From Haliotis asinina (lineage: Eukaryota; Mollusca; Gastropoda; Lepetellida; Haliotidae): a stretch of DNA of 64,000 nucleotides. Made by a program: the position numbers and the translations under genes. Of the stretch, positions 1 to 38,740 are shown in pieces. The stretch covers positions 14,117,969 through 14,181,968 of the forward strand of contig NC_090288.1 in assembly GCF_037392515.1 (NCBI RefSeq), written 5' to 3'. The stretch's first letter is position 1. Each line of letters begins with the position of its first letter. Under the pieces are notes generated by a model, which worked only from the letters and a program-made list of their open reading frames with translations, ran no database searches and was not told the DNA's origin.

Positions 1-1789
1 CGCATCAACGTGTTCACACTCATGTTGTGACAGTTACGCAACTTAAAGAAAGCACCGAACATCTCCGGAAACCAGTCAAGAACGGAAACAATCCCTTCCC
101 GGAATGGCTGTCTAAAAATAATCTATCTGATAAGTCTAATTGAATAGCCCGCAACATTTTCACAGTTCAAAGGACCCATGGAGCGATACTTCTGCGTTAA
201 TGTTCTGAATGGAGAGGTTGACCAGTGTATGTCATGAAAAGGAGACGGACAAAATACTTCAAAGGGATGTCTTCAAGCTCTGCCTGAACTGCTGTCTAGA
301 CCTTGTAGACGAGGCCCGTTTCCTTGTTTAACGTTCTCGGTATGTCCTTGAGGTGAGGAGACAGATCGAACATGTCCCTTGATGTCTTTACTTCGTGAGG
401 TGACAAGATATAATATGTCTTGATCTATCTGTACAACGTGAGTACATTCGTACAATATGCCTTCGTTTGTTTTCATCCCTTGAGGTGCCAAGGTAGAGCA
501 GATCTTCATGTGTTTGTAACCCATAAGATGTCGAAATACAGTTTATCTCACCTCACACATAAATGTCGCTGTCTGATTGGCTGATCTCTCTTCTATTATT
601 TTCAATACACCCCGTACAAACGAGGTGTATTGCCATACACCCCGCTGCCAATAGCAACTCATTCGGCACTTCGTGGTAGTTACTTTTTTTTATCTCGAAT
701 AGCATTAAATGACGCATAGTGCACAGAAATGGAATGGAATGGAATGGAAATCGATGGAAGGGAGATAACTCTAAATCTGTTTTTCTTGTGTCCTCCGCAA
801 AATCTGGCGATGGCTACAAATACATTTTGACAAAACGTTCAAATGTCCGTGTGAATAAGGGGAATTACATCGGGGACTTTACTAAGACTGTACCTATGGG
901 GAAAAAACAGCAAGACGCAAGATTCGAATCGTTTGATTCACACAGGTTAGCTGAAGCGTGCGATCTGATACCCATGCCTCAAACAGTTCAAAATTAACAT
1001 TAAGGGGTTCGGAAAGATATATACGTCTTTCCCTTGTCCCTCGGGGACCATAGGTTGAGGTATGTTTGTTTATGTTCCCTGAGCCAGAAGGGCCCAGTGA
1101 ACAACTTATCAAGTCCTATCTGTGTTCCCCTTGGGGAAGCGAAATATAATATGTCCCCATCTGTCTTTAAACACATGAGACAACAAGAGACAATATGACT
1201 CTATTTGTCTGGATCCTGTAAGATGACAAGACTTAATAATTCCTCAGAAGGTAAAATTCAGCAACGGCTCATGTTGCAGGTGACACGGAATGTGGGTGGA
1301 AACGACCTTTGAGCCCACTGGAAGTGATGTGCATGGAAATGTGTTGGACACATGATATTAGTCTTACGCTGGTATTCTTGAGCTTGTCGTACGACGACAG
1401 ATCGCCACTATAGTCTGTTTGCAGGGAAACTGTACCGATGAGTTTCACTTTGAACAAATATATACATGGCATAAAGTGAAATTAAGATAGTGAATCCTCA
1501 TAATTTTTTCAACTGAGGACAAAAGCTGTTTAATAAACGATCATTGTTTCAAGTCAATTTTTTGTTTGTATTCGCAATCTTAATTTCATTGTATTTGGTT
1601 TACTTTATAGTTTCATTGGCACGTTTTCACTGCAAACATCACTTTACAACTGGGTCCAATCCGACCAATCCGACCAATCCTTGTTTTCCCCTTATTTCGA
1701 GCGAAAGGGTGAGTAGCAAAATATACCATCTTTTCAGTATTTTAGTATGAGATGCCAGAAGGTCGAACCACCAGGCTTTATCCGTACTC

Positions 1790-2010
1790 TGTGCAGCGTG
1801 AATACAATATGCCTTCATTTGGTTTCACCTCGTGAGGTGACAAGGTAGAACAAATCTTCATCTGTCTGTGAGACATGAAATGTCGAAATACGATATGTCC
1901 AATATCTGTACCTCGTGAGGAAGTGAAGCATAATATGTCCCCATCTCTCTTTAAACACATGAGACCAAGACATAGTATGCCCATATCTGCCTACATACCC
2001 CGTAAGGTAG
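1790..2010. repeat. Degenerate ~50-bp minisatellite inside the array unit
   Basis: Successive variants of ATATGTCCCCATCTGTCT followed by CTCGTGAGGTGACAAG recur at about 50-bp spacing. Further blocks of the same repeat lie at 330-530 and 1,120-1,250 in this copy, at 23,870-23,930 and 24,470-24,690 in copy B, and at 33,400-33,560, 34,150-34,210 and 34,740-34,960 in copy C. The best preserved run is in copy D. Confidence 0.75.
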
Positions 2011-2389
2011 CAACAAGTACTATCTGTTCCATGTTTCAGTATGAGATGCCAGAGGATCGAACCACCGTGCTCTATCCGCTTAACGACAGTGAAGTCATTA
2101 TTTTGATCAGAGAGAAAACCGAAGCATGGATTGTAAATTTCAAAATGGAGTGATTGAATATTCCTCAAACCCTTTTTGGCAATATTACATATAAAGCAAT
2201 ATCACCTCATAAACTTTGTTTTCATGCGTGTCTAGATCTGTTGAATGTTTTTCAACTTTATATGTTATTGTTTATACAATTAGGTACTATGCACTCCCGA
2301 CAAACCAAAGCACAAATTATTATCTTTCTATGCATATCATTTGGTTCTTTAGCATGGTCAGGTATATTTTCGTAAATAAGGTATAATTA

Positions 2390-2860
2390 ACTCAGAAAAT
2401 ACCCGGATAGCTACAGAAACACCCAGAAAGTGCTTCATGAACACCCGAATACTGATTTCGTTCTTCATGGACGTTTCAGCTGTTCAATAAACACCTATGT
2501 AGTTCAACTTGAACACCTGTGCAGTGTTTTATTAACACTAACTTGCCAATAATGCCACATGGACACCCCAAACTCTTCCATTACAACACCTTTGTAGTTC
2601 CACTTGAACACGTGGCAGCTCCGTGGTGAAAGCGTTCACACGCTTCAAGCCGAAAGTTCGATTCCCCACATTGGTCAGTGTGTGAAGTCCATGATATGTG
2701 TCCTGATCCGTGATAGTGCTGGAGTATTTCTTTAAACTGGAATAAATAATATCTACTGGAACTTAGTCGTCTTGAACACCCGTGTAGTGTTTTAATTTTA
2801 TGCTTCGTGGATATTCATACTCTGCTTTCAAACAACCCTCAGTGGTGCCACATGAACGCC
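2390..2860 (+). repeat. GAACACC-rich degenerate repeat block with an embedded old SINE
   Basis: Short motifs such as TGAACACC and AACACCTGTG recur every 30-45 bp. Within it, 2,610-2,745 carries a decayed tRNA-like SINE: GTGGTGAAAGCG, then GTTCGATTCCCCAC, then GTGTGAAGTCCA, ending near a run resembling the GATAGTGCTGGAGTATT tail. The same SINE copy sits at 25,590-25,720 and 35,815-35,945. Confidence 0.6.
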
Positions 2861-4657
2861 CAATCTTAGTTCAATCAATTACCTTCTAATCTGAAAAATA
2901 TTGTCTTTTAAATAGTTTGCACTTTTCTTTAATTGCACAAATATTAATTGATTTCTCTAGTTAGAGCAGTTGCCATTAGTAATGATTCACCACAAAAAAC
3001 TAGATTTTATGGAAAAGCAATAAAAATCAGATGGCCCAAATGAATTGCGCCTCACCTTAGCATAACGATCGAGATGGGAAACTATACACTGCTATAGCCA
3101 GGTCCGATATTTCTCAAGTACATCACCAGATGATCAATGATTCGGACAAGCTTGCGTGATACCTCTTCAGCATCTCGTGAGCAATTTGGTGATTACTACA
3201 TTTTTCAATACAAGCGAATGAAAGGAAGACCTCATAACATAGTTGTATTGCACGTACGGAGATTATATCAGTTTTGTAATGATCGTATTTCTGTTTAAAT
3301 CTTTCCGTGACTCGCCAAGTGTCCGACGAGATTCTACGGAAGATGATGTTTTATTGTTCCAGCGCTCTTTGATGGCTAGGTGGAAAGTACGGCTTCTTTC
3401 AGTTCCATCGAAAATGTGTATTATTTTTATTTTTGCGTGATTTATCAGCATCGCATCTTAATAACATCTGACTTCAAGGAACCCTGATCAAAGCCATGAT
3501 TCCCATCTTAGTAGTCTTGGATACTGTGTACAAGGTCAAAACCAAAGAAGAGTCAGTTGACAGCATCGACTTTGGGGGTGTGGTGAGAAAAACAACGGAT
3601 GCCCTTGCTTTGATTTCACACGCCAATACACAACTGAACCTGAGACGCCGAGAATTGCTTCGGCCTGTTCTCCATACACAATACAAGCAGTTGTGTGGAC
3701 CAAATACACCCATGTCCAACCTGTTGTTTGGTGATGACATTGCCGACACCATTAAGACGGTGGCAGCAACACACAAGCTTGGCTCAGAAATCTCTTCCCG
3801 CGGTGGCCGGAATGATCACAGAAAGAGCTTCACGCCACGTCCACGTGATCAAAGATCGGGTCACTACCATCGACCCACAAACTACAACCCCCAGACACGA
3901 AGAAAACGGAAAGTTTTTTTATACCGACCCCCAGCGTTCAAGAACAGGAAGCCACAGGACGGGGAGAGGAGATGTTAGAATCACGGAGTAGCCTAGAGGA
4001 GGTGAGGAACATTTCTGAATGTCCTTTCATTGATCCTAGAGATTTTAAAGGTGGACAGCTTCAGTTTTACTCTGATGAGTGGGAGAAACTAACCTCTGAC
4101 CCTGTTATCTTACGGATTGTGAATGGTTGCCGTATCAGTTTTGATGGCATTCCCTCTCAGACTTGGCAACGAAAAGAGATAAATTTCAATGAATTTGAAA
4201 GGCGCATCATAAATACTGAAATAGGGAAACTGATGTTGCATATTGTAATCGTGCCTTGCAACCATGAGCGTGGGGAATATGTGTCCACAATCTTCACTCG
4301 GAAAAAGAAAAACGGCACTTATAGACTCATTCTGAATTTGAAACATTTGAACAAGCATGTTGAATATGCGCATTTTAAGATGGAAAGTTTAAATTCTGCT
4401 ATTTCCCTTGTCAGACCAGGCTGCTACATGGCATCTATTGACTTAAAGGACGCTTATTATTCGGTGCCGATACATCCTTCACATCAGAAATTTCTTAAAG
4501 GTCACATGCAACGTAAAATACAACTTTGCAGATTCTGGTACCTTTCGGTATGCACTTACCGAAACAAATCATCAAAAATGCCAATTCAACCTATAAAGTT
4601 GAAAAAAACGCGATGAAAAAAAAGCCCGCGAAATCGGAGTTCAAACGTTTCACTAAA

Positions 4658-4679
4658 TTCCCCCCAGCGCTGGGGGGAA
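4658..4679. repeat. Perfect 22-bp palindrome
   Basis: The palindrome is TTCCCCCC, then the centre AGCGCT, then GGGGGGAA. It lies about 160 bp inside the left end of the nested Kolobok-like element. It could be a subterminal protein-binding or cruciform site. No equivalent was seen near the right end. Confidence 0.8.
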
Positions 4680-5063
4680 AACTGGTTTCAACAGCTGTGC
4701 TGCGCTGCGTCCATAACGCATGCGCAGTGAATAGGTTTGCGGAGCTTGAAACAGTATGCATGCCCAGCATCTGAGGTCGTGAGCAGTAGTCTAATCTTGG
4801 TTGTGCACACAAACAAGTAAATAATCTACTCGTTACGTAAAAAAACTTGTTGATTGTGGTAAGCAGTCTCTGTCACAGAGAAAGCTCAGTGTCTGGTTTA
4901 TTCACACCTATATGTCTGCCTGCCTGTCTGCTAAAGACAACATGCAGTACACAGCTTCAATCATTGACCACGTGCAATTTGAACTTAACACCTATCAGAC
5001 TATACGACATAAAGAAAATGAGTTGATTTATGACTCGTGCACCCGAGCCCCGTCTCTGCCACA

Positions 5064-5246
5064 TTATGTAATTAGGCACGTGTGATACACATGACATGTT
5101 TTTATGTCTGTGGGTTGCAAGCAAACTACATTCACTTTTTTTCGGATGACTGGATCTGACGGAAACTGGTGCAAACTCTTGTCAGTTTCAAGTCCTGCTT
5201 TGCACTTGGACGAATGACAGATTCCAGCCACGCAGTAGTTTACCAT
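5064..5246 (-). CDS. THAP-domain fragment (Kolobok-like transposase exon)
   Basis: The peptide begins MVNYCVAGICHSSKC and continues to LHQFPSDPVIRKK. That is the N-terminal half of a THAP zinc finger (C-x4-C followed by the conserved FPxDPxxRKxW region), a DNA-binding domain used by Kolobok and P-type transposases and by host THAP proteins. The residue after RKK is V where W is usual, and a possible donor (AAA|GTGAAT) lies exactly there, so the exon may end at about 5,140 and the remaining open codons may be intronic. The distal C-x2-H half was not found. A second ATG lies four codons upstream at 5,258. It sits inside the TTAA-bounded element and is probably non-functional. Confidence 0.65.
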   Translation of the reverse strand: MVNYCVAGICHSSKCKAGLETDKSLHQFPSDPVIRKKVNVVCLQPTDIKTCHVYHTCLIT

Positions 5247-8200
5247 CTTTACTGACATGATTTTTGATTGGATCGAGCGGAAATTCAGAGAACATGTATT
5301 TTCAAAATCCAGCATCTCTATATACATTCTTTCTGGATAACGACTTCTTTTAGTGTGTATGATTTTGTTTGACAACAGTATATGAATCCATACTGAAACG
5401 ACGCATCAAGTACACAAAAAGAAGTTGTTATCCATAAAGAATCTTACTTTCATGTGACTGACCATACTTCTAAAATGCCCATCAAACAGATCACCTTTCT
5501 GTACACACAATGAACCCTCAGCATATCAGCAAATGAAACAGCCAATCAGGGGCCGTCGTTACACTTGAGTGCACATCCATCCGCTATGACTGGGTTCGGT
5601 CTCCCGAGGGCTTCGTTTCGGGGGAAGTAAGCCCAAGTACAAAATATTGCACTTTTGAATCGCGATTGTACGCTTATAATTTTGTTTATTTGTTTTTTTA
5701 AAAGAAGCAATGTATATTATACGTCATGAATAAGTGATAAATGTGTTTTAATTATGTTTGATTTTTTGGTTGCATGTGACCTTTAAGTTCACTTGGGGTG
5801 GGGCTCTGTACCAGTTTACGTGCCTTCCGAACGGACTAGCGTGTGCACCCAGATACTTTACAAAACTGTTGCGGGTTCCTTTCTCACATCTGCGGGCAAA
5901 AGGACACATGAACGTTGGATTCATTGACGATTCCTTTATAACTGGTGATAATAATCGAGAATGCTCACGATTCGTTATGGAAACCGCTGAACTTTTCACT
6001 CGCCTCGGCTTTGTCATACACCCAGAGAAGTCAGTTCTTGAACCTAGTCAACAAGTGGTTTTTCTGGGTTTCATCATTGATTCTCTTTCTATGAGCGTGT
6101 CATTAACGACAGAGAAAGCTGACAAAATTCAGAAGGCGTGTATTCAGGTGATGCGACAGCCCAGTGTAAGTATGAGGCAATTAGCAGAGGTGATCGGGTA
6201 TTTAGTAGCCAGTCTCCCGAGTGTGAAGCTCGGACCGCTGTTTTACAGACGGTTAGATAACCACAAGTTACGTGTAATAAAACAGACGCGTGGTGACTAT
6301 GACCAGTGTATAACATTAACCGAGGAGGACAAGCGTGACTTAACATGGTGGATTCGGAATATACACACTGCTAGTAAGCCCATATCTGTTGACCCGCCAT
6401 CCGTAACCCTGTCTGCTGATGCTTCAAAGAAAGGCTGGGGAGGGGTACGCGACGGACAGAGCACTGGTGGACACTGGTCACATGACGAAGCAGATAAGCA
6501 CATAAATTATTTGGAACTGTTAGCTGCGTTTTTAACACTCTTTCACTGCTTTCTGTGTTAGTGAAACGAACTGTCACATCCGCTTGCTATTCGACAATAG
6601 TACAGCTGTTGCGTACATTAACCACATGGGTGGGAAGAAATCCCTACTAAACAGTCTAGTCCGTCAAATGTGGGAGTGGTGTATCTCACGGGATATATGG
6701 ATAAGTGCAGCTCACCTCCCTGGGAAGTTCAATGTTTTGGCAGAAAAAGCGTCGCGGCTGATCAAAGACAATACAGAATGGTACCTTACAGCTGATATGT
6801 TTGATGGTGTATGCTACCATTGCGGCACACCAGAAACTGATCTCTTTGCATCGCGTCTGAACAATAGATTACCTAAATATATCTCGTGGAAACCTGACCC
6901 AGACGCGCTAGCAGTTGATGCTTTTTCTATCCCATGCTGGAAACAGTACTTCTATTATGCTTTCCCGCCTTTCAGTGTGATCAACGCTGTCCTGAAGAAA
7001 ACGGAGGAGGACCAAGCCAGAGGTATCCTGATCGCTCCTCTATGGAGCACACAGTCATGGTTTCCCCGACTTCTCAGACTCATCACTCAGACGCCTTTGA
7101 TCCTACCGCCAGCTCGCAGAATTCTTCGCCACACAACGACGGCCAGACTCATCCGCTGACAAAGATGACACTAGCTGCGTTTCTCTTGTCAGGCGATCTC
7201 TCAGAAGGCGAGGAGTTTCGCAGAGGGCTACCCAAATCATCATTCAGTCCTGGAGAACTAACACAAGAAAGCAGTATGACACCTATGTCAACAGGTGGAT
7301 GGTGTTTTGCAGTGAAAGACAGATTGATTCGTTGTGTCCGGATGTAAGTGACGTGCTTGATTTCTTGTGTGAGCTGTATGACCGGCAGCTTGGATATAGT
7401 GCTCTGAACACAGCAAGGTCAGCCCTGTCGTCTGTAGTTGTGTTAGATAGTGGAACCATTGGTAGTCACCCCTTGATAAACAGGTTCATGAAAGGAGTGT
7501 ACAATGCTAGACCTGCATTGCCCAGAAACACTGTCACGTGGGACACTGGAACAGTCCTTAATTATCTTCGCTCAAAGTCATCTGTTCGAAAACTGACCTT
7601 AAAGGACTTAACACTTAAAGCAGTGACTTTGTTAGCAATTTTAACTGGGCAAAGACTGCAAACTGTACATTGCTTGGACATACGAAACATGACACTTTCA
7701 GACAATAGTTGCAAATTTAGAGTAGGTAGTTTGTTGAAACATAGCAAAGTAGGCAGCCATCAACAAGAACTGTGCATTGCAGCATACGCGCCAGACAGAA
7801 GATTGTGTATTGTGACGGTGCTTCGAGAATACCTCGCGAGGACGGCCCCTCTGAGAGGTGTGAACACTCAATTGTTTCTCAGCTATAGTCGGCCTCACAA
7901 GCCCGTTGCCAAAGACACAGTAGCTAGATGGGTTAAACGGGTTTTAGAGCTCAGTGGACTGGATACCACTGTATTCACACCTCACTCCACTCGGGCTGCA
8001 TCAACCCTAGAATTGATTTGATTTGAATACGCCTTTACCTGTGTAAAGCTGTCAACACGAAATAAATGTAAATACGGTGTGGTTATTTGAAACCCTTGAC
8101 TTTAAATATCTCACGTGATCACGTCCTGCGACGTGATTGGTTGAAATATATTTGAAAATTAAACGAAACTTACCGAAGTTGAAGGTTGATTGAGATTATA

Positions 8201-8291
8201 TGAAACCAATCAGTAGCAGGGGGATCACGTGCCCTCAGCCCTGGTTGGTTTTACCCTCCCTCGTATGAGCGGGTTTCAAATAAACCTTTAA

Positions 8292-8370
8292 AAGGGCACT
8301 GATGCGGAGCAATTTTACTTTCGAGCCATCATGTTTATTGCCGTGTTCGGCTGCCGGGCGGGCAGTTCTT
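8292..8370 (+). repeat. 79-bp terminal-like repeat, first copy
   Basis: It begins AAGGGCACTGATGCGGAGC directly after TTAA and matches 15,601-15,679 at 76 of 79 positions. It lies about 150 bp upstream of the cysteine-cluster/P2X7-like gene start, so it could also carry promoter elements of that gene. Confidence 0.9.
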
Positions 8371-8521
8371 GCTCTCTCGACCGTGACAGACACCGGGACT
8401 AGGCAGCTGTCACTTGTCACTCGAGCCGTGGCGACGGGGAAATCCCCTTTCTGTTATCTGAACGCTGATTGGTTCGTTACAACCTTATGTACTCAGACCA
8501 CAAACATGGAGAACAGTCAAC

Positions 8522-10099
8522 ATGGCTAGTTCACAGGACATCACATGCAGCTGCAAAAACACCTGTACTCGTGCGTCGAAGAGAGGATTATGTCCGTGTC
8601 GCACCGCCGGGAAACCATGCACGAGTTTATGCTCCTGTGGCTGGACGGTGCCATGCATCAACAAGCCGACTGCAAGCCTCCGAAGCCGAGGATTGTCCAC
8701 GGTGACCCCAGTGATTTTGCTGATCGCGAAATCTTCATCATGGCACGAGATGTACGTAATATTTGTTAATTATTCCCTCAACAATAGATACAGAGTGTTT
8801 ATACACATACGCAGGTCTTCGTTTATTTCATGTCGAAAAGCATTATATAGGACATAATTAATTTATTGTCCGTTGAAATTCGATGACAACGCTGCCAATA
8901 TCGTATATTTGAAATGTTTTTGAGTTTCTGAATGATAGTTTTACCAAAGAATTCTTGTAACAGGTGATTGCTAAAGTATTCAATTACGTAAGTATATTCT
9001 GTTTGATAGTTTCATATGGAAGGAAGCATGCCATTATTTTATCTAACAAATGTCAATATGATATCAGGATGTGGATGGTGACATCGATCACACCCCTCTT
9101 CTCCTCAACCCCACCCAGAAGAGGAAGATGAAAGCAGCAGCTGGAAGTCGTGTACGAAGAAGGCTTGAGGTGGACCAGGCTCCAGTGGAGGTAATGTTAT
9201 TCATATGAATGCTCAGTTTATGTTCTTTGGTAATTAGTACTATTTATGTGTATTTACTGATAGTTTTCAAGCTGTACAAAACTGTAAACAGTATTGAAGT
9301 AGCACCTCTTTGAATTGCATTTATTAGGATAGGTAAGGATTTATAATTTACATATATTCACAGACTGACAATACAGAGCTGACAAGACAAGAGCTGGGAT
9401 CTGCAGCAAGCTCACCAAAAGGCCCATCGGCACACCACCTGGCAGTCAAGGTACACTGACTTGAATATGAAGTATTGTTCACCCAAAAGATGTGTTAAAA
9501 TGGATGTGAAGTATTGTTGATAAAAAAGACGTGCTAAAATGGTTACTGGAACTCATGCCTGGTTTTTTTTCGCTTGTCTCTAATTTAACATCTCTATTCT
9601 ATTCCAGGAATTTGCTGCGTCTTTAGATGTTTCCGAGCTTAAGACTATAGTAACAGAATTGCTGGTTCGAGATCAGGGGGCGTTTGAAGACTACTGCTTG
9701 GGTTACAGACCGCGTGATCCCCCAAGACAGCCACAGCCTGGCGACCAACCAACATGGTGTAGGTGTGGGAACTGCAGGCCCATGCCATCAGCACAAGAAA
9801 ATAAGTGCTGCTGGCAGACTGGCTCTTCCAAGTGTGCAGTCGATGGCCCAAATGTTTTTACGGTCATCTCACCAGCAGTTCTAGACATTGCCATGGCACA
9901 TTATAATGACTTCTTTGTCCATGACCAAGAAAGGAACAATGCAGCATACAGACACCAGGCATACAGACAATTTACTCTCCAAAGATTTGGCCGACTGGGT
10001 CAGGGAAACCGGCGAGTGGTGCCATCATGTGTTGTCCTAGCAATACGTAGGAGGTACCCAGATCATACAGGTATCTACACAGGTTACAAAGAAATGTAA
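8522..10099 (+). CDS. Cysteine-cluster protein with P2X7-type intracellular (ballast) domain
   Basis: Four exons were read by eye: 8,522-8,751, 9,068-9,190, 9,364-9,450 and 9,608-10,099, all with GT/AG borders, and exons 2-4 join in phase 0. Exon 1 shows a CXC-like cluster (C9, C11, C15, C24, C26, C33, C37, C39, C45). Exon 4 matches the human P2X7 tail: WCRCGNC, a CC pair, YRHQAYRQF..RFG, VPSC, IRRRYP and a terminal GxYTGYK. In P2X7 this domain binds zinc and GDP/GTP; here no channel segments exist, so the protein is presumably soluble and perhaps DNA-binding. The second Cys of the usual PSCC is V. The cluster frame of exon 1 differs by one base from the frame needed to splice into exon 2, so there is a frameshift near 8,650-8,690 or a wrongly read exon. 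AATAAA lies at 10,332. Confidence 0.8.
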
Positions 10100-11546
10100 A
10101 AAAAACAAACAGTTTGGTATATTGTAAAATGTTTTGTGTATAGTTTGTATATATCTGGAATTTGTTTTATATTTTGTATATATTTAATATGCTGTCTTTA
10201 TTTGTTTTATGAATCGGTGTCTGAAAAATTATTTCGTTGAAAGTTATTTGTTTGTTTATCCTTGACTAGCGTGAAAACCGATAATGTTACAACAAGCTGA
10301 TTAGCAAACAACAGACATACAAGTGACTGACAATAAACAGGATGTGACACACCTGTGTGTATTCATGCCACATATACCTCATGAGCAATTACTGACAATG
10401 AAGGTAGTCTCATAAATCTTACACACCTGTGTATATTCATTAAGAATGTTGCATATACCGTGTCACCTTTATGGGTGTAGTGTCAAAACATGGGATGATA
10501 GTAAAAACACAAGACAACACAGTTACATGGGTAGAGATGGATATATTTTCAGTATACATTGCGCAACACATTGACACATTGTCATGTCATACTTAGTCAC
10601 ACCCATATTCATTAGGTAAGTTACACAGACAATATCACCTTTATGGATGTACTCTCAAAACGTGTGTGAAAGTAAATGCTAAGAGTTACATCAGTAATGA
10701 TAATCTTACACCAATGATTTTGTATACATAAATACATTCCACAATAGGAGATAACAAATGATTGTTAGGATCCATATGACAACCATAATTGCAACTGAAA
10801 CTTTGGACAGTAATTCTGATGTAGACTTTGACACAATAGTTGATAATCAATTAATTACACAGAAAAACTTGAAATAGTAGACTTGGATTGGATGAAAGTG
10901 TGAATGGAAAAAAAGACTGATAATACACTATGGAGGCAAAAAATACTTACAAATATACTTTACAAAGATGTCAAGAGAAAAAATATTAAAAACACTACTG
11001 AATATCACAAGTTTTAGATACATGAATTAAATATTGACTGTGAAAGGAAAGGAGCATTTCTTAGGTAGAGATTATGACTTCTTGGTGCTGACAAGATGTA
11101 CACAGTGTAATATGCTGTCTTTTGACAAATTTGAACCAAGATATTTAACAAATGCGCTCATTTATAAATATATTCTTGGCTTTTAAAGGGGAAAAACAAC
11201 AGCCTATCTGCATTTTTATGAAGAAGATTTACACCAAGAGTTAAACCAAACTTCACTAAGATTGGAAAAACTGAGTTGAAAAGATACTACAAATCATGAA
11301 AATTCACCCTCTGGCCAAGCAAAATTTGGTCATCTCTCAACGCTCTCTTTGAACGATAACAGTCTATGAAATCACTGCTTGCTAGTTACATGATGAGCTT
11401 ACAAGTGAGTGCCAATACATTTTCCAAGGGTATATATTTGACCATGTAATTTACTTTACAAGAGACAAAGGCCAACCATTTCCAATGAAATAATACAAGG
11501 TGGTCCCCAGACCTTTTTGTACATATCTATCTGGGTGGAGAACTCT
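10100..11546. other. Spacer between convergent genes, AT-rich
   Basis: No coding signal is seen. It holds the presumed 3' untranslated regions of both genes. Two related segments (about 10,410-10,520 and 10,585-10,690) share ACACCTGTGTATATTCATTA-like and TATCACCTTTATGG-like strings, an old local duplication. Confidence 0.6.
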
Positions 11547-14512
11547 TCATTTCTGGGATCGTGTGACACACTGATTCAATAGTTCTGGCATTGGGGGACA
11601 GGGACTCTTTGCAGTTGTCGATGATATATGCCTGGGATCGTCATCGGCCATTGGTGTTCTTCTTTTCAGACCACCACTCTGCTCATGTTGTCGTTTCTTG
11701 AAGGCCAACATCTGTAGGTCCCATCTGTAGGAATAGTTCTTCTCGACTTTGGCAGTCTTTGGTCTCCAGCGCTGGGTCCTCTTACTGTACACACCAGTGT
11801 ATCTACAATGTAATAATAATAGAAGTAAGGAAATATGTGAGTGATATTGGATAATGTCTAACACATTCCATGGCAAAACCCTGGTGGCTCTCGCTCACTC
11901 ACTGAGGGTGAAATGAAACTGCCCTGCCATATATGACTATTATAAAATATGCTTGTCTGATATGTAGTCAATCGTCGTAGCATGCTTACATTGTTTCCCC
12001 CATCACTAGTTCTCTGATCGGGTCGATGGAGATGGTGGTTGTGATCAATTGCCAATTGTTTCCTTGCACGATAGCCTGTAAACCTGAAGGATAAATATGA
12101 TAAGAGCCTTTTGGACAGGGTCATCAAAAACTGAAATAATTGTTTACATTAAAACATGAAACAAAAGCCTATTCATTTCATGAAAACAAAATACACAGCT
12201 GATGTACTTACTGGTAAGAGTGACGTTTTGGTGAGTACATCAAAATGTGACTGTTGAAGGATTCCAGTGCACCGGTATGTCTGAAACATGAAAACATTTA
12301 CCTAACATTAGGCTACCTTGGAAAGTCCTGAAAAAGGCAGTGATCTCTAAAATGACTGATGACAATGGCATTAAGAATATGTACAGACAGGGATTACTGG
12401 GTGTCAAATTTAGGTATACCTGAATTTGCGGAAGTAATGGAACTTGGCCAGAAACTTTGGGTCTGTGACAATCTGTCGAAGGGTGTCCATTTCAGGACTC
12501 TTTTTGTTTAACCATGGTGGTTTTGTATCCTCTGTCTGGTTGATAGGGGCATGGGAACACTTGCCATCTGTGTGTCCTGCAATGTGCCATTCATGTATGT
12601 TGCACACATGGGACAGGACTCTAATCCAGATTTCCTGGGGACAAAATTGCCATTTTATAGATTAATTTGTTATCTCATGATCCACGACAGATGTATTTTA
12701 AGGACATTTACATATAGCATAAAGCACTACTCTATTGTTATGGTTGGGAACGTAAGACCTGATACCCTTGGGTGGAGAGAAGTAATACCGAGAGCAATGG
12801 TCAACGGCTTACTAACAGAAAGTAAAACATGGGAGCACTTAAATGTGATCAGTCCAGGAAAAGCAGCTATATCTAACATATGGTGACAATCACCCTGTAG
12901 GTTTATATTATAGGGTACATTTGACATATATTTAACAGATTATTACCTTCATTTTGATGGTGTGTCCTTTGCAGACCTGAGCACTCCACCAGAAGTGGTT
13001 CTTGATGGGTGCAATCCATTGTCTCAGCACAGATTTTGGCTTGCAAGACTGAAGTACAAATAAACAAAATGCATAAGCAGGAGACGATCTGTGTGGTCAG
13101 GATTGTATTTGCAATTATTTTTTAAAGGCATTTATAGTGTCTTGGTTTACTAGTAAAACTAATACAATATATGTAGCCCACTGACAGCAATTAGACGCTT
13201 TTCAAGGTTCTTTGCCACATGCCAGATGTCATACTGGTGGTCAATGGCCTGGTATTCTGGGGTGGTTCCTGCGAATTGAAGATATGGGAATGCAAATGCA
13301 AATGCTTTAAATGGTGTCATGGGGTACAAGACAATATTTTTGGTCTATCTTTGTGAAAAGAGATTTCTCATATCTTTTCCTGAATAAACTTCACAACAAA
13401 TATGTCAAATCAAAGTACAGTGTAATAAACAGTCATAAAATGTAAACCTAGAACAATTTTTGAACCTATATCAGATATTGCCATTTGATATACAACCAGC
13501 TGGCTGTGAACAATCATTCAGTAATCTGCATATATCTGAAATAGATTAGCATAATCTTTGTAATACTTACTCATGAGTTTGGTTATCATTGAACTCTGAT
13601 CAGTCACAACTTCAGTGACCTTTACTTTTGAAATAAGGAAGTCAAGTCCAAGCTTAAATGCATCCTTCTCCATTGCCACACTGGAAGTTGACTGGCGAAC
13701 ATCGACTACTTCGAGATGTAATATTGCATCTGTGTCCATATCCGAAAAGGAATAGGTGCAGAACTGGGCAGAATGGCCAGGGGAATCATTCCTCCCATCA
13801 CCAGCAATCCGGACATCCTGTTGCTGTCTAACCTTCTCTGAAAGGAGCTGTGTCTGCATTGATTTCCAAAACATATCCACTGCTGGTGCTGCATACAATC
13901 TTTGGACCTAAAATACATTGTATAAGCATTGCATATTTAAGACGATATTTCAGGAGATGCTCTTTCATAATACATGTATACTAAATAATACAAGTTTATG
14001 TTATGTGAGATCTTCAGAGTTTTGTTGTCAACAAAACATACCTGGTAGAAAGTTGGTTCACTAATACATCCAAGGTTTAGGAACTTGGTTAGAAGGCCTA
14101 TCTTCTTGTATGAGTTGCCACTGAAGAGGATACTAGTTGCCAACTGCAGATTGCCACAAAACATCTGCTTCATTCTTGGTTGAGAGGCCCAGGATCCACA
14201 TGAATGTCCAGAAGTACATTTCCATCTAATCACTAAAGCTGTACCATGGGTCTTGTCTGTGAAGGTCAGTGGTGCATCACAACGTGGCCTTGTACAAGTG
14301 TCACCAGCTTTCTGTTTTACTAAATCCATGATGGGATCCAGGTAACAAATATACTTTCGTGAGGAGATGAGGTCAAGTAGTGGCTCTGAAGTTTCATCCT
14401 CCTCAACATCGTCATCATCGTCGTCATCTGGCAGTGGCAAATTGAGAAGATCTTCTTCAACTGTTGACATCTCGAAGTCATCTCCAAATGTAGCCCCGAA
14501 AATGATAGACAT
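11547..14512 (-). CDS. Multi-exon DDE transposase (Kolobok-like, superfamily uncertain)
   Basis: Eight exons on the minus strand: 14,512-14,042, 13,907-13,571, 13,268-~13,186, 13,048-12,947, 12,634-12,420, 12,280-12,212, 12,083-11,990 and ~11,800-11,547. The start ATG has an in-frame TGA 9 nt upstream. Domains: an acidic N-terminus, a zinc-knuckle-like C..C..CTSGHSCGSW..SQP, then GDGRNDSPG (first Asp, about residue 194), VVTDQSSM (second Asp, about 260), HQYDIWHVAK (the DxxH-type motif), NHFWW, HTGALESFN (likely catalytic Glu), and YRARKQLAIDHNHH. This is a large eukaryotic transposase family seen in fish and invertebrates. Exons join in phase except 7 to 8, where a run of five G next to the exon 7 end gives a one-base mismatch; the family pattern suggests four. 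No THAP domain was found upstream. About 540 residues. Confidence 0.8.
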
Positions 14513-14769
14513 GAGATTTCATTTGCAAGTTTTGGGGGAGAAATTCCTGTCCTTCAGCTAGTAAAATTTAGTCACAGCATGGTCCTTTCGTAATAGTGTG
14601 ATACAATTCAGACACTGAGTCATGGAAAATTGTTGCAGCAAAATATGTTGACACTGGGTCTGGTTCACGGACAGTATGGTATTATAACATGGATAGTGAT
14701 ACTGTGAGACCAGCATAATACCTCTTAGTGTTTGGTTGTTTTTCTAACAAAGATAAAGTCTGTACATAC

Positions 14770-14847
14770 CTTGTATCACTGACATTTGGGTCATAATCTT
14801 CACCAGTTTCATTCTCATCCACAAATTCTCTTTGTCCTTTGCTGAAG
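14770..14847 (-). CDS. Possible 5' exon of the transposase gene
   Basis: It has an acceptor-like TTTCAG on its upstream side and a GTATGT donor, and gives 26 codons in one frame containing the acidic run REFVDENETGEDYDPN. The acidic composition resembles the N-terminus at 14,400-14,512, but the in-frame TGA before the assigned ATG prevents a simple join. Could be untranslated or an alternative first exon. Confidence 0.3.
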
Positions 14848-15596
14848 CTGAAATTAGTGATAAATGTGTAAATTATATGTGAATCATATTACTGTAATAA
14901 CAAATCAGAAAGGTATAATTTTTTATGCACCTGAAATAAAGAGTGCTAGAAAACAATTCATGCATTCATGAGACTAATAAAACACAGCAGAAGTTGTTTA
15001 ACCATTATTATAGTTGTGAAACAGAGGGAAGTATAGTTTCTGCAGTTGTTGCTACTAGTGTTTTTGTAGTCTTCAAATAATAAGTCAATGTAGTGAATTC
15101 ATAAGAACCTTGATTGTGACATTTCACAAGGTGCCTGGTCTGGGACTCCGGGAGAATGGAGCAAACTTGCTGCCAAAGGTGACAAACTCTTACAATAGTC
15201 ACTGGCAATCACACTGGCATCTATAAACATAAATCCAGAGTACACATATGTTTCTATATATACAGCATGTATATGCACAACTATAATCAAATATATCTAT
15301 AATTTGCCACCAGCAGCTGCGATTTCTCCAGTATGACAAGTGTTGACAGTTGAAACAGCAAATTATGGTACATACAGTCTCACCATTAAAAAGTAACAGT
15401 TGCATGAAGGAGGTGGTGGGGAGTATGAGAAGATTTGAGATTTGTGTAATGTGTACAAATGTTACAGCAGTAGACAAATGCCTTCTCAAAAGGGCAAACC
15501 CATGTCACACATGGACAGAACCAAAACCAAAGTAGTAACTACAATGTAACTATAACCACTCAACATGAGGTAAGAACAAAAGTACATGCAAATTAG
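14848..15596. other. Upstream flank of the transposase gene, no gene seen
   Basis: AT-rich unique-looking DNA. No open frame resembling a known domain; the short open frames at 15,000-15,490 lack codon or motif support. If the element is complete, its right terminus should lie here, but no inverted copy of the left end is visible. Confidence 0.5.
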
Positions 15597-15600
15597 TTAA

Positions 15601-15679
15601 AGGGGCACTGATGCGGAGCAATTTTACTTTCGAGCCATCATGTTTATTGCCGTGTTCGGCTGCCGGGAGGTCAGTTCTT
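15601..15679 (+). repeat. 79-bp terminal-like repeat, second copy
   Basis: Directly follows TTAA (15,597-15,600) and has the same length and orientation as the copy at 8,292. Array unit A resumes within about 5 bp of its end (GATATAAACGTTCG). Three mismatches to the first copy. Confidence 0.9.
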
Positions 15680-16283
15680 TCTTGATATAAACGTTCGTCC
15701 ATATGCTCAGTGCCGCCTATTTGTGTTCTAAACCTGGGTTTCAACATGATGCTTTCATGATTCCCCACTTTTTAGAGTGTTTATATCTATTTTCTCTTTC
15801 TGCACTGTTGGAATCCTCTCCATATTTCTCTTTTATCTTCTTTCACTGTCCTCACACTTATCTTGTGCCAACTAAAAGAATTCCGGAGAATCATTTTCGA
15901 ACGTTTCCCGAATTTTGGATCCAAAAACGGAAGTACCAAGGACATCTCTGTAAATAAGAGACTGTAGATAGATCCACGTGACAGTTTATCGCTGGTTTTA
16001 AATCACTGGCCCCGATATCCCGGAAGTGAGCAATGCGCAGTCTCCCAGCGCCAGACAGAGAGTCTTCTTTTGCTCTTTGAAGTTCCTGGTAGAGGATTAA
16101 TGTGGTACAAAAGGACTTGGTTTAGAGACAGTCTTGTGTCAGTTATGTTACGAAGGAAATCTTGGAATATTGGAATTGAATCAAGGACATGCTTCCGCCG
16201 TCGAACCGGACAATTGAACTGAACGACCCTCGTGGGCGCTGACCATCAAATTCAAATGCCTTTAATCACTGACCGGCTTCAAA

Positions 16284-23345: not shown

Positions 23346-26105
23346 TCATCACACGCATCAATCCGTTGACACTCATGTTGTGACAGTTACGCAACTTAAA
23401 GAAAGCGCCGAACGTCTCCGTAAACCAGCTGCAGTCAAGAACGGAAACAATCCCTTCCCGGAGTCGCTGTTTAAAAATAATCTCTCTGATAAGTCTAATT
23501 GAATAGCCCGCAACAATTTCACATGGAGCAAAGGACGTTCTGAGTGGAGACCAGTGTATGTCATGAAAAGGAGACGGACAAAATGATGTTTTGCGAATGA
23601 ATATCAAGAAGGGGAATTACATCGGGGGACTTTACCAAGACTGTACCTATGGGGAAAAACAGCACGACGCAAGATTCGAATCGTTTGATTCACACAGGTT
23701 AGCTGAAGTTTGTGATCCGATACCCATGCTTCAAACAGTTCAAAATTAACATTGAGAGTTTTGGAAAGATGTATACGTTGTTCCCTTGTCCCTCGGGGAC
23801 CATAGGTTGAGGTATGTTTGTTTATGTTCCCTGAGCCAGAAGGGACCAGTGAACAACGTATCAAGTCCTATCTCTGTACCCCTTGAGGGAATATAATATG
23901 TTCCCATCTGTCTTTAAAGTAACACATGAGACAGAAGGTAACATTCAGCAACGGCTCATGTTGCAGGTGACACGGAATGTGGGTGGAAACGACCTTTGCG
24001 CTAATCGGAAGTGATGTGCATGGACATGTGTTGGACACATGATATTCGTCCTGTCTTACGCTGGTATTCTTGAGCTTGCCGTACAACGACAGATCGCCAC
24101 TATAGTCTGTTAGCAGGGAAAATGTACCTATGAGTTTCACTTTGAACAAATATATAAATGGCATAAAGTGAAATTAAGATAGTGAATCCTCATAATTTTT
24201 TCAACTGAGGATAAAAGCTGTTTAATAAACGATCATTGTTTCAAGTCAATTTTTTGTTTGTATTGGCAATCTTAACTTCATTGTATTTGGTTTACTTTAT
24301 AGTTTCACTGCAAACATCACTTTCCAATCCGACTGGGTCCAATCCGACCAATCCTTGTTTTCCCCTTATGTCGAGAGAAAGGCTGAGTAGCAAAATATAC
24401 CATCTTTTCAGTATTTTAGTATGAGATGCCAAAAGTTCGAACCACCAGGCTTTTTCCGCACTCTGTGCAGCGTGAATACAATATGCTTTCATTTGGTTTC
24501 ACCTCGTGAGGTGACAAGGTAGAACAGATCTTCATCTGTCTGTCAGACATGAGGTGTCGAAATACGGTATGTCCAATCTCTGTACCTCGTGAGGAAGTGA
24601 AGCATAATATGTCCCCATCTGTCTACACATGAGACCAAGACATAGTATGCCCCTATCTGTCTACATACCCCGTAAGATGGCAAGATTTAATATATCCTCA
24701 GAAGGCAAAATTCAACAACACGTCAGGTTGTAAGTAAGACGGAATGTGGGTGAAAATGAATTGGAAGTGATGTGCATGCAGGTGTGTTGGGCAGATGGTA
24801 TTACTTACACCGGTATTGTGGTGCTTGCCGCATGATGGATCGCCATTAAGATGGATCGTCCAGAAGGACACATACAACTGAGTCCACTCCGGCCAGTCCT
24901 TGTTTTGCCTTATGTCGAGCGAAAGGCTGAGTAGCAACAAGTACTATCTGTTCAATGTTTTAGTATGAGATGCCAGAGGATCGAAACAGTGTGCTCTAAC
25001 CGCTTTTGAGCGGAGAGAAAACCGAAGCATGGGTTGTAAATTACAAAATGCAGTGAGTGAATATTGGTCGAACCCTTTTTGACAGTATTACGGCAACGTC
25101 AAAATTACAAAATGGAATGACTAAATATTCATCAAACCCTTTTTGGCAATAACACATATAAAACAATATCACCTCAGAGGACACCTGAAAAAAGCATTGT
25201 TTTCATGCGTGTCTGTTGAATGTTTTTCTATTTTTATGCTTTTTTTAAAAATACAATTAGGTACTATGCACTCCCGACAAATCAAATGCACAAATTATTA
25301 TCTTTCTATGCAAATCGTTTGGTTCGTTAGCACGGTCAGGTATATTTTCATAAATAAGGTATAATTAACTCAGAAAATACCCGGATAGCTGCAGAAAAAC
25401 CCAGAAAATGCTTCATGAACACCCGAATACTGATTTCGTTCTTCATGGACGTTCCAGTTGTTAAACAAACACCTATGTAGTTCAACATGAACAGCTGTGC
25501 AGTGTTTTATGATCAATAACATGCCAATAATGCCACATGGACACCCCAAACTCTACCATTACAACACCTTTGTAGTTCCACTTGAACACGTGGTAGCGCT
25601 CCGTGGTGAAAGCGTTTGCACGCTTCAAGCCGAAGGTTCGATTCCCCAGATTTGTCAATGTGTGAATTCCATTATATGTGTCCTGATCCGTGATAGTGCT
25701 GGAGTATTTCTTTAAACTGGAATCAATAATATCTTCTTGAGTGTAAGTAAACTTAGTTTTCTTGAACACCCTGTTTTAATTTTATGTTTTGTGGATATCC
25801 ACGCTCTGCTTTCAAACAACCCTCAGTGGTGCCATATGAACGCCCAATCTTTGCTCAATCAATTACCTTCTAATCTGAAAAAAATGTATTTTAAATAGTT
25901 TGCACTTTTCTTTAATTGCACAAATATTAATTGATTTCTCTAGTTAGAGCAGTTGCCATTAGTAATGATTCAACACAAAAAACTAGATTGGATGGAAAAG
26001 CAATAAAAATCAGATGGCCCAAATGAATTGCGCCTCACCTTAGCATAACGATCGAGATGGGAAACTATACACTGCTATAGTCAGGTCCGATATTTCTCAA
26101 GTACA

Positions 26106-26390
26106 TCACCAGATGATCAATGATTCGGACAAGCTTGCGTGATACCTCTTCAGCATCTCGTGAGCAATTTGGTGATTACTACATTTTTCAATACAAGCGA
26201 ATGAAAGGAAGACCTCATAACATAGTTGTATTGCACGTACGGAGATTATATCAGCTTTGTAATGATCGTATTTCTGTTTAAATCTTTCCGTGACTCGCCA
26301 AATGTCCGACGAGATTCTACGGAAGATGATGTTTTTATTGTTCCAGCGCTCTTTGATGGCTAGGTGGAAAAATACGGCTTTCCGTTCCAT
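26106..26390 (-). other. Conserved 94-codon open frame in the array unit (copy B)
   Basis: The frame reads through a segment that is nearly identical in copies A, B and C; it is intact in B and C (see 36,324-36,608) and shifted in A by one base in a T run. It includes LAIKERWNNKNIIF and CYEVFLSFACIEKC. I do not recognise a family, and high DNA identity alone could keep it open. Treat as hypothetical. Confidence 0.25.
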
Positions 26391-28142
26391 CGAAGATGTG
26401 TATTATTTTCATTTTTACGTGATTTATCAGCACTCGTTGTATCTTAATAACATCTGCCAAAGAGGATTAGCGTTATGGAGAAAATGAACTTTGTCTAGAA
26501 TTCCCGTCTGTTCTGGTATTGTAAGATGTGATCAGAAGCAAGCAGGGTTTTCTTTGGAGATGCGTTTTGGTTTATTTGTCGTGACAGGGATTTGGTTCTT
26601 GAAAAGGGAAAAAAATAAGTTGTCTTAATTAGGTTATTGTAAGTGGGATAATTGTCGCCCGTCTGTCATCATATTCGACTATTGTCATCAATCATTGCAT
26701 TCATCAGAATATTTTATATATTTATGCAACAACATCGTCGGCATCAACATCATCATCATCACCGTCATCATCACCATCATCGAAAATCATCCGTCAGCAG
26801 GCAACAATCATCATTGTCAAGTAATCACCATCGTTGTTTCCATGGAAGATGCCCAAACAATAATGTTTTCAGAAGGAAACAATCCCTAGAAAACTTGTTA
26901 ATACCATTTTGAAAATATTAATAGATGGTTGAAAGTACTCGTGTTTAATTTGCGCTTAGAATGGAATAATTAGTTAAAAACATAATCGACCAGTGCCAGA
27001 AAAAAACGCATGTTCAAAGATACATTCAGTTTATAAACAGCAAAGAATAAGGACATTCCCTGTTTAGCAACAACGATTAGTTGGAACAGAAATGTCGGAA
27101 GTCATTGTCGCCATATTGGAAGGAACACGATTCTCTCGAGGTTTTAAATACTGTTATTGTTTATTACAGTCACCTGAAACTATAATGCTATGATACAGTG
27201 ACGTCACGATCCGTCGGTGGATAAAACGTATTTAATAAGGTTACATTTAATAATTATCGATTACTATTCATGATATACTTTTTTCATTTGCTCCTCTGAA
27301 AAGACAAGACTTTATTGTAAAAGACTGATGTAAATGTGCACCTTTCTTTATAAGCCCTTTCTCAATTTCTCTGTGTGATCAGAATCCCATTAGAATCCCC
27401 CACTCACATCCCCGAGGACCCTCACCCAACAACTTACAGGGTGGTAGATTGTGTACCACTGTGTCAAGACAAGATAACACCGACAAATTACATTTTAGAC
27501 TGACGTCATATTGATGGAATATTGCTGAATATGATAACAAATAAACAATTCCTTGGGAGCCATTAACTGAATTTACGTCAAAATACAATGAAATTGAGTC
27601 ATGTCAATTAACCAATTAAGATATTTATTCTACATGGCGACACTGTAATTGGCATTATAACGAGGGGGAAATGACTTTTTGTTCTAAAAACCATATTGGC
27701 AAATGGCACTATATCCAAAGTGCACTGTAAGCATCATCATTTTTTTAAACAGTTGATTTAGGGGGAATGTTTAACAGACGGAATAATTATTTGTTTCTGA
27801 CAAGTGTTAAATGTTTGAATAACTCAAATAACATTCTGAACAGATCCTTTAGGCTACATTGCAAATAATTGACAGTGGTGGTTTAGTTTTCCAGATATGA
27901 TTTAAAACCAAGGTTTGTAGTGAGAACGTCCGTATACTCCTTTTCACGAGGTTTGACCTCATAAAATAGAAAACCTTGATACAGAGTTACAATGATAAAC
28001 AGTTGATAGGTTATTGTTATTGAGGATAGTTGAAGGTCAAATGATCGAAGGTTTCACGGAAATTATTCTGTCGCATATGTGATAAACGTGTGGCTAGTAT
28101 GTGCCAAGAGTGGACATGTGTGCCAAACAGGCTCCCCAACGA

Positions 28143-28315
28143 GTGACAGTTGTAGAGTTATGGGTGTGTATCAACTGTAGACGTGACGGACGTGTATCAA
28201 CTGTAGACGTGACGGGTGTGTAGCAACTGTAGACGTGTTGGGTGTGTAGCAACTGTAGACGTGACTGATGTGTGACAGTTGTAGATGTGATGAGTGTGTG
28301 ACATTCCTACTCAAG
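28143..28315 (+). repeat. 26-bp minisatellite (copy B)
   Basis: Units of the form GTGTGTAGCAACTGTAGACG plus TGACGG, five to six copies. The same locus in copy C (38,309-38,420) has about four, so the array changed length after duplication. Confidence 0.85.
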
Positions 28316-28537
28316 ATGTGAACTTTCTCCGTTTCTCTTTACACCAGTTACCCGTGTTTGCTCAACAAAGAGTGGTGTTCTCTCAGTCCTGGTGACGCCA
28401 ACCCACACTATCAATCAACAGGTCTGTTCCAGAGCTCAGGTTGACGTTAGGAGGAAGGGTCATGTTGATGTCGCCAGTCACTACCAGGCCTGTGAGGGAA
28501 GTGCAGATTGAACCGGACTCGTACCAAGACATGACAC

Positions 28538-28753
28538 GTGACCAGCGACGAATACACTGATAACGATTTGTTAAGTGGTGACCATGGAGAGAATGGCATA
28601 GATGATCTGCTTCTACACAATTCGAGGCCGCCTGCTTCTGAATTCGTCAAGCACCCGGATGAAAGTTGGGAGCAATTTCATTCGCCGTTTGAGCTCCAAT
28701 TCGAAGATCATGATCTCAGATTAATCAACCCTGTACTGTTTGGCCAAACGTGA
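28538..28753 (+). other. Acidic open frame conserved in copies B and C
   Basis: It reads NDLLSGDHGENGIDDLLLHN, then RPPASEFV, ending FELQFEDHDL and NPVLFGQT. Copy C (38,498-38,707) keeps the same frame without indels but with about nine amino acid changes. Strongly acidic, no recognised domain. It might be an exon of a repeat-borne gene or a frame open by chance. Confidence 0.3.
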
Positions 28754-28799
28754 GAGGGATCTATCGTCTGTTTATCCGGTTTTGTCATAGTCAACTAAT

Positions 28800-29045
28800 C
28801 GCAGACTGTCAAACCCGTGAAGATCCGGGTTACAATTAATCTTCAATAAGAAGCGACACACGATATCGGTGGTCAGGCTACAGTGGTTACTTTGTTGACA
28901 CATGTCTTCGCATCCCACTTGCATAGATCGATGCTCATGCTGTTAATCACTGGATTGTCTGATTCAGCCTCGAGTACTTACAGAGGGCTGCCATATAGCT
29001 TGAATATTGCTGAATGCGATGTGAAATTGAACTCACTTATTGACT
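28800..29045 (+). mobile_element. SINE, family 2
   Basis: Head GTGAAGATCCGGGTTACAAT, middle GATATCGGTGGTCAGGCTAC and ACACATGTCTTCGCATCCCA, GATCGATGCTCATGCTGTTA, CACTGGATTGTCTG, and a tail (TATAGCTTGAATATTGCTGA) akin to that of family 1. The equivalent in copy C is 38,741-38,975. Confidence 0.8.
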
Positions 29046-29510
29046 TTGAAACATGGAATAGCCAAGATACGTGGATACGACATGACTCGCTAGTTCATAA
29101 ATTATACAATGATTTTTAATGTATGAAATCAAGTAAACCACATCGATTGACAGAAATAATGGTCGTTGGAATATAGCTGAAAGCGGCGAAAACCCATTCT
29201 CAGTTACTCCTCCGAATTCAGCTACTGTCAGGTTGAGTAGGGACGTTCGATAGTTTGTCTGCTAGTGATGCTGTCCTACTTGTACCGGTGTATAGTTTTA
29301 TATCGTGTCGAGTTACTAAAATTATGCCATGCTATATAAACCATGTATGGGCTACTATAAGTCTACAAGACTTACTCCAGTTCTACCAAGGCTTACTGTA
29401 AATCTACTATGGGTTTCTAACGATTGAAGATGAATCGACATCCTTGAAAGTGTCAAAATCCTGAATGTCACTCTACGCACATGCGTGGCGCTACAACAAC
29501 ATTCAATGTG

Positions 29511-29640
29511 TTTTGGTGGCGGAATGGTTAAAACGTCCGCCAGTCACTCTGAAGAACCGAGGTCGATTCCCAACATGAGATTGAAGTCCATTTCCTGTGT
29601 CCCTCGCCATGTATTGCTACAATAGACATAAAACTGTTTT
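29511..29640 (+). mobile_element. tRNA-headed SINE, family 1 variant
   Basis: GGTGGCGGAATGGTTAAAACG, GGTCGATTCCCAACATG, TTTCCTGTGTCCCTCGCC and a worn tail. The same insertion is present in copy C at 43,541-43,700, where the LINE lies just upstream. Confidence 0.75.
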
Positions 29641-36323: not shown

Positions 36324-36608
36324 TCACCAGATGATCAATGATTCGGACAAGCTTGCGTGATACCTCTTCAGCATCTCGTGAGCAATTTGGTGATTACTAC
36401 ATTTTTCAATACAAGCGAATGAAAGGAAGACCTCATAACATAGTTGTATTGCACGTACCGAGATTATATCAGCTTTGTAATGATCGTATTTCTGTTTAAA
36501 TCTTTCCGTGACTCGCCAAATGTCCGACGAGATTCTACGGAAGATGATGTTTTTATTGTTCCAGCGCTCTTTGATGGCTAGGTGGAAAATTACGTCTTTC
36601 AGTTCCAT
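36324..36608 (-). other. Conserved 94-codon open frame in the array unit (copy C)
   Basis: Differs from the copy B frame only at a few residues near its start (MELKDVIFH against MERKAVFFH). Same caveats apply: hypothetical and possibly open only because the duplication is recent in this block. Confidence 0.25.
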
Positions 36609-38308: not shown

Positions 38309-38420
38309 TGACAATTGTAGAGTTGTAGGGTGTGTATCAACTGTAGACGTGACGGGTGTGTAGCAATTGTAGATGTGACGGGTGTGTGACAGTTGTAGAC
38401 GTGACGAGTGTGTGACAAGG
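38309..38420 (+). repeat. 26-bp minisatellite (copy C)
   Basis: About four units ending GTAGACGTGACG, at the position of the longer copy B array. Confidence 0.8.
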
Positions 38421-38707: not shown

Positions 38708-38740
38708 GAGGGATCTGTTGTCTGCATAGTCAACTAATCG

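Follow-up and report, generated by a model that had tools for sequence, protein, structure and literature searches.

Two convergent genes lie side by side in a stretch of 64,000 nucleotides of the Haliotis asinina genome (contig NC_090288.1, positions 14,117,969 to 14,181,968 of the forward strand; hereafter, the window), one encoding a cysteine cluster and a P2X7-type domain and the other a DDE-type transposase. Do they form a single mobile element, and if so, of which kind? The unit is almost certainly a cut-and-paste DNA transposon of the Kolobok superfamily, now defunct, with a DDE transposase accompanied by a convergent gene for KolX, a ballast-domain protein. The original prediction, made from the letters of the window, took this partnership for an unusual system. 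It has already been published and is not new here: in the passages of Kojima & Bao 2022 (PMC9587614) cited throughout, the Kol0 families of Kolobok encode a DDE transposase and KolX, are named in vertebrates, annelids, cnidarians and sponges, and KolX has the P2X7 cytoplasmic ballast fold, P2X7 having arisen by fusion with KolX. Ballast-domain proteins occur in many animals, including molluscs, according to the cited part of Rump et al. 2020 (PMC7016195). Below, family 1 is the family of the window element and family 2 a second one with copies on contigs C1 and C4 (Table 1).

The gene on the minus strand has the marks of a Kolobok transposase. A model joined from the window copy and from L017, a relative on contig C13, scores 43.5 bits against the Mutator-like Pfam family PF20700 (cut-off 26.5), in agreement with the DDE-type enzyme originally proposed. 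The catalytic residues follow one another in the order D, D, DIWH, E, with DIWH conserved in 76/73 of the 83 other aligned rows (counts for the three acidic residues are in Table 1). Between DxxH and E, where Kolobok transposases carry a zinc finger, the Cys of GKCSH is found in 73/83 rows, the other 10 being gapped; we read it as the third ligand of the finger. An assignment to piggyBac was rejected: Pfam shows only PF20700, and the termini begin with 5'-AG, a difference of Kolobok from piggyBac in the passages of PMC9587614. The prediction of two convergent intron-bearing genes stood, with AG/GT-bordered exons in KolX and about 10 exons in the transposase, but both genes are damaged in the window. 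In the transposase, the splice acceptor before exon 14481-14042 is unlike that of L017, and exon 12083-11990 has indels relative to it. L017 is itself damaged: it has lost 10 bases in one of its transposase exons and lacks a left end. As read, both are dead copies.

The plus-strand gene encodes the two modules that had been proposed, an N-terminal cysteine cluster and a P2X7 intracellular domain. The joined KolX model, which has no channel part, matches mouse P2X7 (9e3q) at E 4e-16. A fold model of the KolX relative P0023 is confident in the ballast part (block means of the predicted local distance difference test, pLDDT, of 78-94 over residues 161-260), and its PDB matches at E<=0.001 are P2X7 in 14 cases out of 14. 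The domain had been described as zinc- and nucleotide-binding, and the zinc half of this description is borne out by the cysteines: all seven are present, and at each position the cysteine is shared by 35-37 of the 36-39 relatives that cover it. The nucleotide half fares worse. Among the five residues given for GDP (guanosine diphosphate) binding in rat P2X7 in the cited part of PMC7016195, the window KolX keeps three (the equivalents of R546, H547 and R578), whereas V and D stand in place of R574 and K583, V being usual in KolX (32/39). We thus rejected P2X7-type GDP binding by KolX, as two of the five reported residues differ.

P0005 of H. rubra and P0023, itself a KolX that is 34% identical overall, retain all nine cysteines of the cluster. 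The cluster is seen in 3 of the 39 KolX matches (P0005, P0008 and P0023), many of the others being short and possibly partial predictions; P0005 and P0008 come as isoforms from a single gene of H. rubra, and the form annotated for it has no ballast match. A dedicated search for relatives of the cluster returned two proteins, both from H. rubra, and none beyond Haliotis (P0023 came from a separate search). Against Pfam and PDB the cluster had no significant match, tesmin/TSO1 CXC being the sole Pfam family to score at all.

A Kolobok transposase inserts its element at TTAA, which is duplicated; that it cuts at the inverted repeats is to be expected from what DDE transposases generally do. The left boundary had been placed at a TTAA followed by a repeat, and this was confirmed: the terminus AAGGGCACTGATGCGGAGCA comes directly after TTAA 8288-8291, and 8288-8370 recurs as a direct repeat of 83 bp at 15597-15679. 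Thirty bases of this repeat have 2 occurrences in the window, for 0 expected by chance. Elsewhere in the host genome (1.14 Gb) we found three left ends, one on C16 and two on C6, the latter two being duplicates of one insertion. The 83-bp repeat apart, 8288-15679 has no match of at least 80 bases elsewhere in the window, in line with the claim that the unit is absent from the other copies of the surrounding array. No clean empty site was found for the left insertion; the left flank is DIRS-like and the array copies differ across 3470-15684.

The right boundary proposed at 15600 has to be given up. L017 is 95.5-97.6% identical to window 9596-15600 (98.0% over 4110 aligned bases in the right part) and runs on for 1.42 kb beyond the point matching 15600, up to a right inverted repeat and TTAA. 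This end, CCTGCGCATCAGTGCCCCT followed by TTAA, is the inverted counterpart of the window left end. The locus on C16 (L006) shares the right part of L017 and ends in the same right terminal inverted repeat (TIR). Because both continue to a right TIR, the window unit belongs to a TIR element with a full length of about 8.7 kb (summed from two copies rather than taken from one assembled sequence), and the window copy lacks the right 1.42 kb, including transposase exons 1-2. The inverted repeats of family 1 read AGGGGCACTGATGCG(G/C)AG. Termini are of the form 5'-RR...YY-3', with AG...CT in L017/L006 and in family 2 and AA at the window left end. TTAA is found at both left ends in the window, at the left of L006 and at the right of L017.

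What, then, is the second copy of the 79-bp repeat? It is a left end joined to an internal TTAA: the window reads CAAATTAG-TTAA-AGGGGCACTG where L017 reads CAAATTAG-TTAA-CAATGG, and this end runs for 79 bases, followed by a 4-base filler, beyond which the array starts again at 15684 (= 29657 = 43720). On the simplest and most likely reading, another copy would have inserted at the internal TTAA, and a later deletion would have taken the rest of that copy together with the right 1.42 kb of the host element, leaving the 83-bp direct repeat. The junction coincides exactly with the internal TTAA and with the first base of the terminus, as would be expected of a Kolobok insertion, which speaks against aberrant repair or a tandem duplication inside one copy without any second insertion. 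That alternative can nevertheless point to the two window left ends being more alike (80/83) than either is to the one on C16 (77/83 and 78/83), and to the missing right-hand side of the event, of which no second TTAA or right TIR is visible; we consider it unlikely, while leaving it appreciable weight. Next to no credence is due to the notion that the unit is a KolobokP element with these repeats as its long terminal direct repeats, so that 8288-15679 would be complete. KolobokP elements do have paired direct repeats and are found in Vetigastropoda, including abalones (PMC9587614), and the window unit is bordered by direct repeats, so that the two share their superfamily, their presence in abalones and a superficial resemblance. 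However, the repeats of KolobokP are about 450 or 660 bp long with inverted repeats of their own (PMC9587614), whereas that of the window has 83 bp and no inverted end, and family 1 has no 450/660-bp terminal direct repeats. Furthermore, L017 lacks the repeat at the place of 15600 and, like L006, ends in the right TIR. KolX is present instead, and for the His-Me finger nuclease there was no Pfam match among the predicted proteins (no search aimed at the nuclease was made), and the second CCHC finger given for the KolobokP lineage in PMC9587614 is not visible by eye. This identity of the edges was rejected, being contradicted by L017.

Having settled on a TIR element with a second, truncated left end, we turn to the partnership of the two genes. 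The linkage check that came with the original prediction was run in the same genome, and both genes were found convergent and less than 10 kb apart at other loci. A genome-wide search for P2RX7_C (PF20478) gave seven matches, a lower bound, with 19 candidates scored; all seven matches listed are convergent with Kolobok transposase sequence at most 5 kb away, as anticipated for a regular transposon partner. Random placement so close has a probability of ~5e-4 per P2RX7_C locus, with 56 transposase rows taken as independent loci. A further locus missed by the family search, C8:24.96M, also has the KolX exon region (99.1%). Could the P2X7-type gene instead belong to the host and lie next to an unrelated transposon, or have been captured by one? 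Degenerate KolX pieces (L019, L020 and L021), for which no transposase was detectable in the fetched stretches, would fit such a chance pairing. However, L020 shares two short stretches of DNA with the right part of L006, and at ~22 kb from the L019 remnant, on the matching strand, there is a right end with 83% identity to the one in L017. Since linkage in convergent orientation holds for all seven family-level matches listed, across two families whose termini are unrelated, and since published Kol0 elements have the same gene pair (PMC9587614), we rejected chance neighbourhood as very improbable.

The expectation that other loci would show TTAA and inverted ends held for family 2, in which two copies have TTAA and inverted repeats on both sides, but not for family 1, where both sides were never seen together. 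Family 2 reads TTAA-AGGAGAATACGA...TCGTATTCTCCT-TTAA at its two sites (on C1 and C4), the flanks of which are unrelated, and its copies are 96-99.8% identical across the compared stretches. It encodes a KolX-type gene (PF20478 at 31.5 and 30.3 bits, cut-off 23.5) convergent with the transposase, and is the complete two-gene TTAA unit that had been predicted. Close to its right end, the C1 copy has an exon that encodes a THAP domain (E 7.1e-16), and the cysteine-cluster pattern is absent from family 2 in every frame. A nonautonomous family shares its final 123-140 bp with the right end of family 1 (of 1170 first-look candidates, 40 were scored, most over the shared right end alone). All four copies fetched end in ...GCATCAGTGCCCCT followed by TTAA, with differing right flanks, and three of the four are 99% alike over 700 bp. 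Their shared terminus suggests that they were moved by the family-1 transposase.

What does KolX contribute? It would be a zinc-built accessory subunit of the transposition complex, aiding the transposase on DNA, and in family 1, as the transposase there lacks the THAP DNA-binding domain of family 2, contact with DNA would fall to the cysteine cluster of KolX. The family-1 enzyme starts with GRPRITESANKRR...RICLGVHFDRF, and oysters, a freshwater mussel, amphioxus and a fish supplied five relatives with a like start, chosen by motif or by eye. In a transposase tree of 77 of the 84 rows (7 short rows dropped; root unknown), 17 THAP-type rows, including frogs and family 2, are on one side of a branch supported at 99/98, and family 1 lies across it with other GxxFxRW-type rows, at a weak joining point (69/45). 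Because family 1 is outside the THAP-type branch and family 2 inside it, and both have KolX, KolX accompanies two separate transposase types in one genome. The coupling of a missing THAP with a cysteine cluster on KolX is suggestive only, and DNA binding may have shifted between KolX and the transposase. A broader version, which we put forward tentatively and judge rather doubtful, is that KolX would be an ancient, regular partner of Kolobok across at least two transposase branches, with DNA recognition having moved between the partners: in THAP-type elements, the transposase would recognise DNA, and in the THAP-less branch, the CXC-like zinc module of KolX would do so.

Several observations weigh against parts of this picture. 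The gene models were spliced by eye, without transcripts. The resemblance of the cluster to CXC is not significant: the PF03638 (tesmin/TSO1 CXC) cut-off of 23.5 bits is not reached by the 9.0 and 10.9 bits obtained in two of three sequences (E 0.6-2.3, spanning nearly the whole profile), the third has no match, and in the P0023 fold model the cluster is of low confidence and not resolved. Among the fetched loci, no family-1 copy has both ends intact at TTAA, and the exceptions to TTAA are the right end of L006 (TTGC) and the duplicated C6 left end (preceded by ATAA). At C8:66.82M, a family-1 transposase and part of the intergenic stretch are without a KolX match in the fetched 9 kb, ~6.3 kb of which lie beyond the transposase; homology ends just before the expected KolX start. 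Finally, many Kolobok families in this genome are without detectable KolX, since P2RX7_C was found near only 5 of ~22 transposase loci, with flanks fetched for a minority of them.

Compared with the passages available for known systems, the window element has the feature of the Kol0 lineage, a second gene for a KolX that has seven Cys and the ballast fold of P2X7. It shares with Kol0 (Kolobok-1_XT type) the DDE transposase and separate ballast protein, the seven zinc cysteines, TTAA and 5'-RR termini. It differs in a family-1 transposase without THAP, with a GRPR...GxxFxRF-type start and outside the THAP-type branch, and in the nine-cysteine cluster at the N-terminus of KolX. With the XKol elements of Xenopus (PMC6004289) it shares TTAA duplications, AG termini and a Kolobok-superfamily DDE transposase. 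XKol transposases mostly have THAP (C2CH in 31/38 and 24/24; PMC6004289), as has family 2, unlike family 1. The ballast of vertebrate P2X7 and Nanor (PMC7016195) has the same seven zinc cysteines and R546, H547 and R578 equivalents, whereas the window KolX has no channel in its model and differs at the R574 and K583 equivalents. In the literature searched, subscription papers and Repbase Reports excluded, no paper listed is titled on abalone KolX elements or on the cysteine cluster; the combination of a THAP-less family-1 transposase with a KolX bearing an N-terminal nine-cysteine CXC-like cluster may be new.

Table 1. Features of the window element (window coordinates) and related loci in the Haliotis asinina genome.
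Feature	Position	Strand	Remarks
TTAA, left edge	8288..8291	.	homologous left end on C16 (L006) likewise starts at TTAA
Left terminus; first ~20 bp AAGGGCACTGATGCGGAGCA = terminal inverted repeat	8292..8370	+	pairs with L017 right end AGGGGCACTGATGCGCAG and ends of nonautonomous family L066-L069
KolX exon 1, 9-cysteine CXC-like cluster (CSCKNTC...CPC...C...CSC...C.NK)	8522..8751	+	exon end inferred; later part frame-shifted relative to H. rubra P0005
KolX exon 2	9068..9190	+	AG/GT borders, phase 0; matches H. rubra P0005/P0003
KolX exon 3	9364..9450	+	AG/GT borders, phase 0
KolX exon 4, P2X7-type ballast domain (P2RX7_C)	9608..10099	+	PF20478 E 1.1e-25; all 7 zinc cysteines
Stretch between the 3' ends of the two genes	10324..11032	.	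kept in whole or part at C13, C16 (to 10588), C8, C6 (twice)
Kolobok-type DDE transposase, exons 3-12	11547..15220	-	exons 1-2 absent in window, present in L017 and L006
Transposase exons 3-7	15220-15109, 14847-14770, 14481-14042, 13907-13571, 13268-13186	-	
Transposase exons 8-12	13048-12947, 12634-12420, 12280-12212, 12083-11990, 11802-11547	-	
Exon with catalytic D1 (GDGRNDSPG) and D2 (VVTDQSS)	13571..13907	-	D in 80/83 and 81/83 other rows
Exon with catalytic E (HTGALESFN)	12212..12280	-	E in 64/83 other rows, 12 more gapped
Internal TTAA, here joined to second left end	15597..15600	.	L017 retains unoccupied form CAAATTAG-TTAA-CAATGG
Left end of second family member, remainder missing	15601..15679	+	80/83 identical to 8288-8370 with TTAA counted
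Linked P2RX7_C loci	C9 (window), C13:23.29M, C16:1.79M, C1:44.74M		at C16, transposase exons 1-2 only
Linked P2RX7_C loci, continued	C4:55.84M, C13:0.62M, C3:77.2M		
Family-2 copies	C1:44738594-44746499; C4:55839213-55847858		TTAA both sides
Nonautonomous family (>700 bp), large and recent	L066-L069 = C3:302400, C1:23865550, C9:2126280, C2:91162580		

The surroundings of the element are themselves repetitive. An array of repeated units occupies window 1-3470, 23354-29783, 33420-39228 and 43532-47240, with matches of ~75-94%, and a DIRS-like tyrosine-recombinase retroelement lies at 3472-8287, adjoined on its right by the Kolobok copy. An insert of ~1.1 kb interrupts the reverse transcriptase of this retroelement, which matches RVT_1 in two pieces (3849-4613 and 5752-6558), and a Phage_integrase match follows at 7101-8018. 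Window 5000-5480 is a very abundant young repeat (2895 first-look genome candidates; of 40 scored, several are identical over 481 bp), with a THAP-like start by eye on the minus strand and no Pfam match. At L044, this repeat lies beside a Kolobok-type transposase match; the case for it as a travelling companion of Kolobok loci is weak, given the 2895 first-look candidates. On C13, at 9.57M, 9.81M and 10.04M, three copies of a transposase relative (61-71% identical) are spaced ~235 kb apart, parts of them within long open frames of 500-1129 codons, and may be domesticated or segmentally duplicated.

The function of KolX is not stated in the cited passages of PMC9587614, although P2X7, a receptor of inflammation and immunity, owes its cytoplasmic tail to the KolX domain. 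That KolX goes with two dissimilar types of transposase, and that zinc modules may have been exchanged between the partners, yields a concrete and testable idea of its role, and the near-identical copies of family 2, together with the large nonautonomous family, suggest recent activity that could be assayed. Should DNA recognition indeed have moved between KolX and the transposase, the tail of P2X7 would have its origin in one of the two halves of a divided machinery for DNA recognition.

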